Origin: Bradyrhizobium sp. LTSP849
GTDB lineage: Bacteria > Pseudomonadota > Alphaproteobacteria > Rhizobiales > Xanthobacteraceae
Assembly (NCBI RefSeq): GCF_000938255.1
Contig: NZ_JYMR01000031.1
Location: 1 to 64,000 of the forward strand
Reading direction: 5' to 3'
DNA: 64,000 bases
Shown here piece after piece: positions 4,391-56,642 of this stretch (position 1 is its first letter; every line of letters starts with the position of its first letter). Below the pieces are notes generated by a model. The model was not told the origin of the DNA. It searched no databases and saw nothing but the letters and a program-made list of their open reading frames with translations. Both the position numbers and the translations under genes were made by a program.

Positions 4391-4603
4391 GACGTTGCTC
4401 CCTGAGATCCCCTTGGGATCACTCCCTCCGCGCGCCGCTTTGCACGCGACCATCATGGTTAACAGAGAGTGACCTTCCAAAAAAGTCAGCCTTGCTGTCG
4501 TTCACCCGGCGCGGCGACCTCACGCGTCGCGACCGGCATGGTTAAAGAAAGCTGAAATCAACACGTTGAAGAGTCTTTAAGTAAATTCACCGAACCTGCG
4601 CGC

Positions 4604-5803
4604 ATGACGCGCGGAGTTCGTTTGTATCTCGTCGGCTCCATCGTCCTTGTTTCGCTTGCGGGTTGCGGACGCGGCTTTTTCCAGGCCGAACGTGAACCGT
4701 GGCGGGCCGAGGCCGAAGCGGCGTGCCTGAAATCCGGCGCGGTCAAGGAAAACGCGGACATCGTCCGCATCGAGCCGATCTCCGGCCCCGGCATGTGCGG
4801 CGCCGAGTTTCCGCTGAAGGTCGCCGCCATCGGCGATCCCTCGAGCAGCTATGGTTTCGCCGACGAGGAACTGCGCCCGCCCGGGAATGTTGGCAACCAG
4901 CCGCGCTGGCCGGTGAGGCAGCCGCAGTCGAATTATCCGGCGTCGTCCTATCCGCAGCGGTCGAACTATCCCGAGAGCGCGGTGCGCCAGCCGTCAGGCT
5001 ATGGCGCATCCTCAGGCCCGGTTTCGCTCAGCGCGCCCGGCGTTGCGGCGCAGGAAGACGAGATCGATTTGCCGCCTGATGGCACCGACGCCGCGGGTGC
5101 CGCACGCTATATGAATGCGCCGAGCTATCCCGCGCGGCAGCCCGGTCCGTCACCTTACTCCCAGGCCCCTGCGCAACAGCCGCCGCCGCGGCTCGGCCCC
5201 GCGCAGGGCAATCCCGTCACCGCCGTCGGACCGGTCGCGATCAAGCCGACCGCGACGCTGGCCTGTCCGATCGTGTCCGAGCTCGACCGCTGGTTCGCCG
5301 ACACTGTGCAGCCTTCGGCGATGCGCTGGTTCGGCGCCCGCGTGGTCGAGATCAAGCAGATTTCCGCCTATTCCTGCCGCGGCATGAACGGCAATCCGAG
5401 CGCCCACATTTCCGAGCACGCCTTCGGCAATGCGCTCGATGTCGCCGCCTTCGTGCTTGCAGACGGCCGCCGCATCAGTGTGAAGGACGGCTGGCGCGGC
5501 ATGCCGGAAGAGCAGGGTTTTCTGCGCGACGTGCAGTCGGGCGCGTGCGCGCATTTCACTACCGTGCTCGCGCCGGGCTCCAACGTCTATCACTACGATC
5601 ACATCCACGTCGATTTGATGCGCCGCGCCAGCCGCCGCCTGATCTGCCAGCCCGCAGCGGTCTCCGGCGAAGAAGTCGCCGCGCGCGCCGGCGGTCGCAG
5701 CCCTTACGCGAACTCGCGCGATCCCTCTGTGACCGGCGCGCTCGGTGCGCACAAGAGCAAGCACGAGAAGGTCAACGAGGAAGACGAGTTCTCGGACGAT
5801 TAG
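4604..5803 (+). CDS. extensin-like C-terminal domain lipoprotein
   Basis: 399 residues. The N-terminus is a lipoprotein signal with lipobox LAGC (Cys about residue 21), so the protein is probably membrane-anchored in the envelope. Residues ~80-210 are a Pro/Ser/Tyr-rich linker. The C-terminal ~185 residues are an extensin_C (PF06904-type) domain: LACPIVSELDRWF, SAYSCRGMNG, SEHAFGNALDVAAF and YHYDHIHVDL. The H-x6-D and D-H-x-H arrangement resembles the zinc ligands of M15/VanY-type peptidases, so peptidoglycan hydrolysis is a reasonable guess but unproven for the family. The ATG at 4604 is used because it opens the signal peptide directly. Confidence 0.85.
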   Translation: MTRGVRLYLVGSIVLVSLAGCGRGFFQAEREPWRAEAEAACLKSGAVKENADIVRIEPISGPGMCGAEFPLKVAAIGDPSSSYGFADEELRPPGNVGNQPRWPVRQPQSNYPASSYPQRSNYPESAVRQPSGYGASSGPVSLSAPGVAAQEDEIDLPPDGTDAAGAARYMNAPSYPARQPGPSPYSQAPAQQPPPRLGPAQGNPVTAVGPVAIKPTATLACPIVSELDRWFADTVQPSAMRWFGARVVEIKQISAYSCRGMNGNPSAHISEHAFGNALDVAAFVLADGRRISVKDGWRGMPEEQGFLRDVQSGACAHFTTVLAPGSNVYHYDHIHVDLMRRASRRLICQPAAVSGEEVAARAGGRSPYANSRDPSVTGALGAHKSKHEKVNEEDEFSDD

Positions 5804-5812
5804 CCGGACGCA

Positions 5813-6436
5813 ATGTGCAATCAGATGCCTGCCGACATCGTCCGCTATCTCACCCACCCGCAGGTGCAAATCGATCCCGACGTGCCGGTGCCGCAATGGG
5901 GCCTGAGCCCGATCGGACGTGCGCGGACCGAGACGGTCGCGAATGCGAGCTGGCTTGCGCGCACCACGCAGATCGTCGCCAGCGGCGAGCGCAAGGCGAT
6001 CGAGACCGCCGAGATCATCGCAGGCTCACTCGGCCTCATGATCGAGATCCGCGAGGCCATGCATGAGAACGATCGCTCGGCGACCGGCTTCCTGAAGCCG
6101 GCCGAGTTCGAGGAGGTCGCCGATCAGTTCTTCGCGCAGCCTCATCTCAGCGTCCGCGGTTGGGAGCGCGCCATCGATGCGCAGGCGCGCATCATCCGCG
6201 AGGCTGAGGCGGTGCTGGCGCGCAATCGGCCGGGCGATGTTCTGTTCGTCGGCCACGGCGCCGTCGGCACGCTGTTGTTCTGCCATACTGCCGGCCAGGC
6301 CATCGACCGCCGCCACGATCAATCCGCAGGCGGAGGCCACGTCTTCGCGTTCACACGCGACGGGCGGAAGATCCTGCATGGCTGGCGAAGACTGGAAGAC
6401 ATTTCCCAGCGTCGTCCCGGCGAAGGGGATCCATAA
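5813..6436 (+). CDS. histidine phosphatase family protein with altered RHG motif
   Basis: 207 residues (203 if the ATG at 5825 is used). It has the layout of the phosphoglycerate-mutase-like superfamily: an N-terminal catalytic-His strand (RYLTHPQVQ), the S-x-x-x-R-A-x-x-T-A element (SGERKAIETAEI), and the second His in DVLFVGHGAVGTLLF. The usual R-H-G reads T-H-P, so the His is kept but the phosphate-binding Arg and the Gly are not. The last residues (QRRPGEGDP) and the stop codon are encoded by a palindromic repeat at 6410-6530, so the C-terminus has been rewritten by repeat insertion. It starts 9 bp after the extensin gene and may be co-transcribed. Confidence 0.75.
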   Translation: MCNQMPADIVRYLTHPQVQIDPDVPVPQWGLSPIGRARTETVANASWLARTTQIVASGERKAIETAEIIAGSLGLMIEIREAMHENDRSATGFLKPAEFEEVADQFFAQPHLSVRGWERAIDAQARIIREAEAVLARNRPGDVLFVGHGAVGTLLFCHTAGQAIDRRHDQSAGGGHVFAFTRDGRKILHGWRRLEDISQRRPGEGDP

Positions 6437-6530
6437 CCACGAAATGCAGTTTGGCGAAGACTCGTGGTTGCCGGCCTCGCACCGCAACTTCTCTCTGGGA
6501 GTATGGGTCCCGGCCTTCGCCGGGACGACG
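6410..6530. repeat. palindromic intergenic repeat (family C)
   Basis: CGTCGTCCCGGCGAAGG at the left and CCTTCGCCGGGACGACG at the right form a long inverted repeat around ~85 bp that also contains ACCACGAAATGC / GACTCGTGGT complementarity. It overlaps the 3' end of the histidine phosphatase gene and lies between convergent genes. Confidence 0.75.
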
Positions 6531-19445: not shown

Positions 19446-19930
19446 AATATCAGCCGGCCTGTAAGCCGGGTTCTGTAAGGCACCGCCCGCTTGCGCGAAC
19501 GATACGTGACGGCCATTCCTCTGGGACAATGTTTGCACATTGCCTCGAGCAACCTACCCGGACGGCGGGCCTGACATCGCCCCGCGGCGTTATCGCTTGC
19601 GCGATCGGCCCGCATTTGCCGTCCCTATTCGGTTTTGCTCCCGGTGGGGTTTACCATGCCGACCCCGTTGCCGGAGCCGCGGTGCGCTCTTACCGCACCT
19701 TTTCACCCTTACCCGCCTACGCTGCTTGCGCAGCTTCGGCGTGGCGCGCCTTGCGGGCTTGTCACGCCATAGCCCCGTTAGGGGCGACGGCGGGCGGTTC
19801 GTTCTCTGTGGCACTTTCCCTGGGGTTGCCCCCGCCGGACGTTATCCGGCACCGTATGTCAAGGGAGCCCGGACTTTCCTCCCCGGCGGCCTTTCGGCAC
19901 CTACAGGGGCGGCCGTCCGGCCGACTGACG
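19446..19930 (-). ncRNA. rnpB: RNase P RNA (bacterial type A)
   Basis: Catalytic RNA of ribonuclease P, which matures tRNA 5' ends. On the - strand the conserved 5' core reads GCCGCCGGGGAGGAAAGTCC (near 19870-19895), with GAGGAAAGTCCGGGCT of the P3/P4 region. The 3' part contains TTACAGAACCCGGCTTACAG (near 19460-19480). The terminal helix P1 closes as a 10-bp stem between 19919-19928 and 19450-19459 (one G-U pair), which sets the ends to within a few bases. The length of ~485 nt is somewhat long because of alphaproteobacterial GC-rich stems. Open frames across this region are artefacts. Confidence 0.93.
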
Positions 19931-37677: not shown

Positions 37678-37840
37678 ACCCCTCTCCCTAACCCTCCCCC
37701 GCAAGGGGGGAGGGAACCCATCCGCCGGTGCCTCCCTGACTCTCGCAAAGGAGCAGAGCGCAGCTGTGGCGCTAGGTGAGGCGAGCACGCTGGTCAAGCT
37801 CCCTCCCCCCTTGCGGGGGAGGGTTGGGGAGAGGGGTAAG
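37678..37840. repeat. long inverted repeat (family D) between murC and murB
   Basis: CCCCTCTCCCTAACCCTCCC at the left and GGGAGGGTTGGGGAGAGGGG at the right are complementary apart from a few positions, around ~105 bp. The inner flanks CCCGCAAGGGGGGAGGG and CCCTCCCCCCTTGCGGGGGA also pair. The 276-bp murC-murB gap holds nothing else. Confidence 0.8.
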
Positions 37841-50876: not shown

Positions 50877-50976
50877 GTCATTCCCCGCGAAGGCGGGGAA
50901 TCCAGTATTCCAGAGGCAGAGCGAGGATACGGAGAGGCTGCGGCGTACTGGATGCCCCGCCTTCGCGGGGCATGAC
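50877..50976. repeat. palindromic repeat family A, copy 3
   Basis: GTCATTCCCCGCGAAGGCGG opens the left hairpin, then CCAGTATTCCAGAGG, GGCGTACTGGATGCC and the right hairpin CCCCGCCTTCGCGGGG, ending CATGAC. Here both arms are of the same CCCCGC type. It sits between ligA and the convergent MFS gene. Confidence 0.85.
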
Positions 50977-52437: not shown

Positions 52438-52537
52438 GTCATTCCCCGCGAAGGCGGGGAATCCAGTATTCTAGAGGCAGAAGTCGTATACGGAGATGCC
52501 GCGGCGTACTGGATGCCCCGCCTTCGCGGGGCATGAC
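52438..52537. repeat. palindromic repeat family A, copy 4
   Basis: About 90% identical by eye to the copy at 50877 over 100 bp: TTCCCCGCGAAGGCGGGGAA, CCAGTATTCTAGAGGCAG, CGGCGTACTGGATGCCCCGC, CATGAC. It lies in the gap between the MFS gene and the aminopeptidase gene. Confidence 0.85.
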
Positions 52538-56101: not shown

Positions 56102-56231
56102 TTTCTGCCTCCCATTTCCCAGCGGGGGCTCCTTTCTTCATAGACAGCTTTTTTGACACGCGCCCGCTGGGGGAATTGCCTTCCGGCGGGCGGAGTCGTT
56201 TTGGGGCTTCTCACCGGAAATGCTCGTTAGC

Positions 56232-56464
56232 GTCTCAGTTTGAAATTCTCTCGACCTGGACGCCGTCGAAGTTTTGATAATGAATCAGGCCCGCCTCATC
56301 GGTATCGACGAGCGTCCCTACTTCAAGATAGGCCCATTGCTCGGCAGGGTAATCTGGAGAAAATCTGCCCTCAGAGATTAGTGCGACGACACGGCCAGTC
56401 ATACCGTCGATTCGAATGCGGTCGCCGATCTCCATGCTCCCAGCCTCCAATTTCAAACTGAGAC
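56232..56464. repeat. 233-bp module bounded by perfect 16-bp inverted repeats
   Basis: GTCTCAGTTTGAAATT at 56232-56247 and AATTTCAAACTGAGAC at 56449-56464 are exact reverse complements. They enclose exactly one small gene, whose stop codon lies inside the left arm and whose ribosome site adjoins the right arm. I see no obvious target-site duplication outside. Confidence 0.75.
56235..56435 (-). CDS. 66-residue protein inside an inverted-repeat module
   Basis: From the ATG at 56435, with GGAGG about 8 bp upstream. The longer frame to 56456 would need a TTG. The sequence MEIGDRIRIDGMTGRVVALI looks like a small SH3-like beta barrel; it continues FSPDYPAEQWAYLEVGTLVD and ends in VQVERISN. No signal peptide or membrane segment. 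Not recognised as a named family. The last five residues and the stop are encoded by the left inverted-repeat arm. Confidence 0.6.
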   Translation of the reverse strand: MEIGDRIRIDGMTGRVVALISEGRFSPDYPAEQWAYLEVGTLVDTDEAGLIHYQNFDGVQVERISN

Positions 56465-56610
56465 ACTACCGAATGCCCACAGGCAGTCCGCTCATTTTTC
56501 GCATGCTGTCCACGGCCTTATCCCGCCGCTCATCCCCAGGTTTTCCACCGCCTTGTACCCAGTTTGGTCGGGCCGGCGCGCACCGCCTTCTCACAGCTCT
56601 CCCAACAGCC

Positions 56611-56642
56611 TGTCCACAGCCCATCCACAGGCCTATCCACGG
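56611..56642. repeat. three DnaA-box-like 9-mers at 11-12 bp spacing
   Basis: TGTCCACAG (56611), CATCCACAG (56622) and TATCCACGG (56634) resemble the DnaA box TTATCCACA with two to three changes. Further relatives (CTGTCCACGG, CTTATCCCG, TTTTCCACC) occur at 56505-56550 in the same 170-bp gap. Confidence 0.4.

Follow-up and report, generated by a model that had tools for sequence, protein, structure and literature searches.

The perfect 16-bp inverted repeats which enclose a small gene in the window (the whole 64,000-nucleotide stretch of a Bradyrhizobium sp. LTSP849 contig analysed here) are transposon ends, and the block that they bound is very probably an old, non-autonomous IS1-type gene cassette that has retained its gene. 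In the reading that we propose, two IS1-type transposon ends surround one small gene, which has a ribosome site of its own and is accompanied by no transposase; full-length elements bounded by the same ends encode an IS1-like transposase, which presumably mobilised the cassette in trans. Its insertion point was GAATGCCC, which lies downstream of an oxidoreductase gene with a Flp pilin gene next to it, and 8 bp were duplicated there (as shown by empty sites in relatives and by the decayed repeats). One end doubles as the gene's final three codons and stop, as in other cassettes, and transcripts of the codirectional gene upstream may read through into the cassette and so allow expression. Since insertion, the gene has been under purifying selection and the ends and target repeats have decayed, as comparison with a second copy (in genome G163) shows.

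Limits and passenger gene of the cassette

The initial annotation described a 233-bp block bounded by a 16-bp arm and its exact reverse complement and holding one 66-codon gene. We confirm the arms, which occupy 56232-56247 (GTCTCAGTTTGAAATT) and 56449-56464, and find for the minus-strand ORF its start (ATG 56435) and stop (TGA 56235-56237), the position of its final codons (I, S, N and stop) within the left arm and the Shine-Dalgarno-like GGAGG directly against the right arm (Table 1). The arms stand as described, but the element is larger than the block they delimit, with an imperfect repeat running outward to 56226 and 56470. A chance origin of the arms had been considered very unlikely, and when the window was simulated 30 times with a first-order Markov model no comparable 16-bp perfect inverted repeat arose; the real window holds four further places with a 16-bp perfect inverted repeat at such spacing, two of them being near-identical copies of one palindromic repeat. 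The statement that no transposase is adjacent agrees with the ORF list.

As separate observations on the window, near-identical 88-bp palindromic repeats (beginning TCATTCCCCGCGAAGGCGGGGAATCC) lie at 50883-50970 and 52444-52531, further perfect inverted repeats at 37690-37825 (arms of about 26 bp) and 6410-6530, and the sole Rfam match at gathering threshold is a bacterial class A RNase P RNA at 19446-19928 on the minus strand. The TCCACA and TTATCC motifs of the spacer to the right of the cassette resemble DnaA boxes.

Table 1. Coordinates of the cassette and of its surroundings in the window.
Feature	Position	Strand	Remarks
Whole cassette, non-autonomous IS1-type element (very probable)	56226..56470		245 bp; genus-wide end motif, convergent pairs with 8-bp direct repeats
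Left end, GTTAGCGTCTCAGTTTGAAATT	56226..56247	+	differs from the 19-mer consensus at 2 positions
Right end, GGTAGTGTCTCAGTTTGAAATT	56449..56470	-	exact consensus
Left target-repeat copy, AAATGCTC	56218..56225	+	decayed; matches right copy at 6/8
Right target-repeat copy, GAATGCCC	56471..56478	+	also the sequence of the empty sites of L012, L032, L034 and L124 and of both G151-array spacer repeats
Passenger gene	56235..56435	-	66 codons and stop; ends in ERISN-stop within the left end
Ribosome-binding-like site, GGAGG	56444..56448	-	abuts the right end
TCCACA/TTATCC-rich intergenic tract	56479..56632		downstream of FAD-oxidoreductase-like gene; within the insertion hotspot

A DNA search found the whole cassette in just one genome besides its own among the 195 searched (own included), namely G163, where it occupies the same place in the same orientation. 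The two genes differ at 35 sites, 24 of them third codon positions (dN 0.096, dS 0.68, dN/dS about 0.14), and the G163 protein is 82% identical to the 66-residue protein of the window. This protein has no Pfam match above cut-off and none in NCBIfam, PADLOC or PHROGs, and its single-sequence AlphaFold model is poor (pLDDT 45). Homologs outside cassettes were found in G024 and G026 (among 60 genomes) and, putatively, in G297 (among 289 genomes).

The cassette end itself supplies the codons for I-S-N and the stop, and the native homologs in G024 and G026 have other C-terminal endings. Terminal genes across the family of elements with these ends tend to finish in the same way, inside the repeat as (I/N)SN-stop, on the TGA of the repeat. 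We counted non-transposase terminal ORFs over 114 arms of 57 elements (near-duplicates removed, L149, L120 and L178 dropped, and weaker pairs retained solely where flank repeats matched): at 60 residues or more, the stop frame of the end has 14 and the two alternative frames 1 and 5, the corresponding counts being 20 versus 7 and 11 at 40 residues or more, and 8 versus 1 and 4 at 80 or more. All 14 transposase hits, full or partial, are also in the stop frame. In two other cassette gene families, the end stands at the 3' terminus in 7/10 and 3/4 of the genus homologs found.

A shared end family and its transposase

The end is widespread. GGTAGTGTCTCAGTTTGAA occurs with at most one mismatch in 53 of 190 genomes of the genus (reversed-pattern control, 0), and a scan of named genomes gave at least 119 stretches with an exact 19-mer; among the matches listed for the latter are records of Bacteroidota, Acidobacteria, Nitrospirales and Proteobacteria, many of the listed records being metagenome bins, in which misbinning is possible. 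A convergent pair of ends, spaced 251-3927 bp, was present in 23 of the 48 loci read, the partner end being absent or more decayed in the remainder. Pairing by ends alone, with the flanks ignored and with the other stretches of the at least 119 used besides the 80 listed (the elements of the frame count above come from the loci read and those 80), gave 68 elements including the window copy (67 once two that are 96% alike are merged). Flanking 8-bp repeats match at 7/8 or better in 57 of the 68 (perfectly in 46 of those), and the 11 pairs without good direct repeats include the window copy, with its 6/8. The same ends bound unrelated genes and transposons. A literature search for the end and parts of it turned up one unrelated paper and no mention of this sequence; ISfinder and most subscription journals lay outside this search, and a named entry may exist.

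Two further candidate features of the family were rejected: a strict target motif, CTGT|GG, fitted at 5/6 or better at 5 of 48 sites against 0.4 expected, a count biased upward by the motif having been chosen after some of the same sites had been seen, and a shared 5' leader, GGTAAGCTTCGCAAGGGAGG, was present in just 5 of 290 arms (control, 0).

Transposase content divided these elements by size. Among the 41 longer than 1.2 kb, 33 (all between 2282 and 4224 bp) carry a near-full-length IS1-like transposase (at least 240 residues aligned), five a transposase fragment and three none; among the 27 shorter ones, 24 have no transposase, holding unrelated genes instead, and three have a fragment. 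Starting from the transposase led to the same ends: seven of eight loci selected in this way (from 3 of 17 plasmid records and 5 genome loci, with L116 left out) have them with at most three mismatches each, together with perfect 8-bp repeats, and these seven include plasmids of Acidiphilium multivorum, Hoeflea sp. and Mesorhizobium loti. The single miss comes from the genome of the window itself: it is a distant relative, 39% identical to the cognate transposase and on a different contig, and that genome has no other match to this transposase. The omitted L116 locus (genome G149) carries a single exact end, and its contig runs out without a partner.

Elements of the IS1 family make duplications of 8-10 bp and have ends starting with GGT, and the present family has 8-bp repeats and ends reading GGTAGTG. 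One protein (L038) was scanned against Pfam and matched PF03400 (DDE_Tnp_IS1) with 27.7 bits (cut-off 24.1); NCBIfam IS1 was the best match of four transposases out of four, at 61.6-71.4 bits, under its cut-off of 100. The classical IS1 transposase is made from two frames, insA and insB', unlike the intact transposases read here, which are single ORFs of 292-321 residues.

Other genes travel within these ends. A small ORF (MPRGPKGEKRP...) is present in 38 of the 68 elements, 31 of these with near-full-length transposase; in L109 it lies at 4481-4717 on the minus strand (2606-2842 of the element), and a relative in a Mesorhizobium loti element is annotated as histone H1. Further cargo comprises HTH-M78 proteins (one matching the RmrA models of PADLOC), a HigB-like protein, a RES/Xre pair, AAA/STAND ATPases and a GFA-family enzyme. 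An 804-bp element of the family holds a rifampin ADP-ribosyltransferase-like gene (L118, 1647-2102, minus strand; Arr-ms, 158 bits).

The insertion hotspot and the history of the window copy

The insertion locus is a hotspot. Empty sites were sought in relatives, and in 4 of the 21 compared the insertion point reads exactly GAATGCCC. The spacer between the flp and oxidoreductase genes was surveyed from 90 best flp matches (a partial one in G030 omitted), two of which have no second anchor; of the resulting 88 orthologous spacers, 75 are 124-230 bp long and free of ends, and 13 are 329-4088 bp long, each with an end. In G151, three different cassettes form an array with GAATGCCC between them, and 4 of the 7 right-end-to-left-end pairs spaced 0-40 bp have 8-bp-exact junctions. 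All 12 small cassettes read at the locus share one orientation, and the ORF of a larger element there (G096) runs in the opposite direction and does not terminate in the repeat. Cassettes also adjoin the oxidoreductase ortholog in G083 and G015, where flp was not found, and G001, G012 and G057 have related ones with neither anchor beside them.

The initial annotation named, as the outcome that would refute it, a block found once, in one place and orientation in all relatives, with freely diverging repeats. This describes the window copy, which is seemingly fixed (the G163 arms agree at 9/16 positions), but not the family overall, which is mobile. As far as the sequences tell, the window copy is old and its gene is under selection; it is probably now immobile, since no close helper transposase is encoded in the genome that carries it. 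That the window and G163 cassettes were inherited within a sister lineage finds no support in a tree of two flanking genes, in which the two genomes are not sisters and many loci without cassette stand between them. On this placement, the two copies may stem from a single early insertion followed by losses, from exchange or from separate insertions, two in number, at the hotspot.

Competing explanations and known systems

Three readings had been offered for the block, and the evidence favours the gene-carrying MITE-like cassette: the end sequence, the direct repeats, the empty sites, the occurrence of related cassettes elsewhere and a cognate transposase all speak for it. Perfect inverted repeats around a gene are also what a segment inverting by site-specific recombination between its arms would have, and the ORF list of 52-60 kb was read for a recombinase; yet the single orientation seen in G163 and in all the small cassettes at the locus, together with target repeats and empty sites that fit transposition, makes inversion hardly credible. 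Nor is it at all probable that the arms act in RNA (by mRNA end pairing, circularisation or a terminator hairpin selected for the gene): complementary arms do stand on either side of the coding region, but in G163 the protein is conserved while the arms have lost much of their complementarity, and the same ends surround unrelated genes and transposons.

A plain MITE with an incidental ORF would share with the window element its shortness, its two inverted ends and its lack of transposase, and the family has members of 141-228 bp (e.g. L161, L184, L193 and L165) without a long ORF into the ends. Purifying selection on the gene, the homologs outside cassettes in G024 and G026 and the preference of terminal ORFs for the stop frame of the end speak against this reading, which we consider very improbable.

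Integrons are the textbook route by which bacteria collect single genes, and their gene cassettes consist of little more than a single gene and its ribosome site and can be stacked one way round at one place. IS with passenger genes (tIS) reportedly occur in the IS1 and IS1595 groups, and MIC231 of Bacillus cereus is an example of a mobile insertion cassette (MIC). The MIC class is named in PMC3129680 and PMC6542083. In their accessible portions, these two sources, PMC7986276 and PMC10969869 treat MICs, tIS or MITEs as classes, and not this family with IS1-type ends. A MIC has IS ends around transposase-free passenger DNA and is expected to be moved by its cognate IS. The window element resembles it in its target-site duplication (from the GAATGCCC empty sites, the partly matching window repeats and the family's repeats), in carrying another gene and no transposase, and in having the same ends as transposase-bearing, putatively autonomous elements, the Acidiphilium, Hoeflea and M. 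loti plasmid copies included. It is most likely a settled MIC with IS1-type ends, and differs from MIC231 in these ends, in its one tiny gene, in a stop codon supplied by the end and in stacking at one target. The partner elements resemble tIS in that the same ends enclose an IS1-like transposase and, with it, HTH-M78, HigB-like, RES/Xre or AAA genes, whereas the window copy is transposase-free and the partner transposase falls below the NCBIfam IS1 cut-off.

The likeness to integron cassettes lies in single genes with a ribosome site, stacked one way at one place, and the difference in the transposon ends and 8-bp target repeats that bound the present family. It is a tentative idea, which we hold with considerable doubt, that the whole is a system analogous to integrons, in which IS1-type ends with a stop codon would pack promoterless single genes, one conserved end would spread in trans across phyla, and stacking in one orientation would follow from an 8-bp target regenerated at each insertion. 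Should the apparent movement and stacking of the cassettes be real, an IS1-like transposase would do an integron-like job without an integrase, and the cassette ends would even furnish the stop of the reading frame. This can be tested by way of the hotspot, the empty sites and the partners that carry a transposase, and with the conserved 19-bp end as a simple tag, such small, mostly unnamed genes can be located across many genomes.
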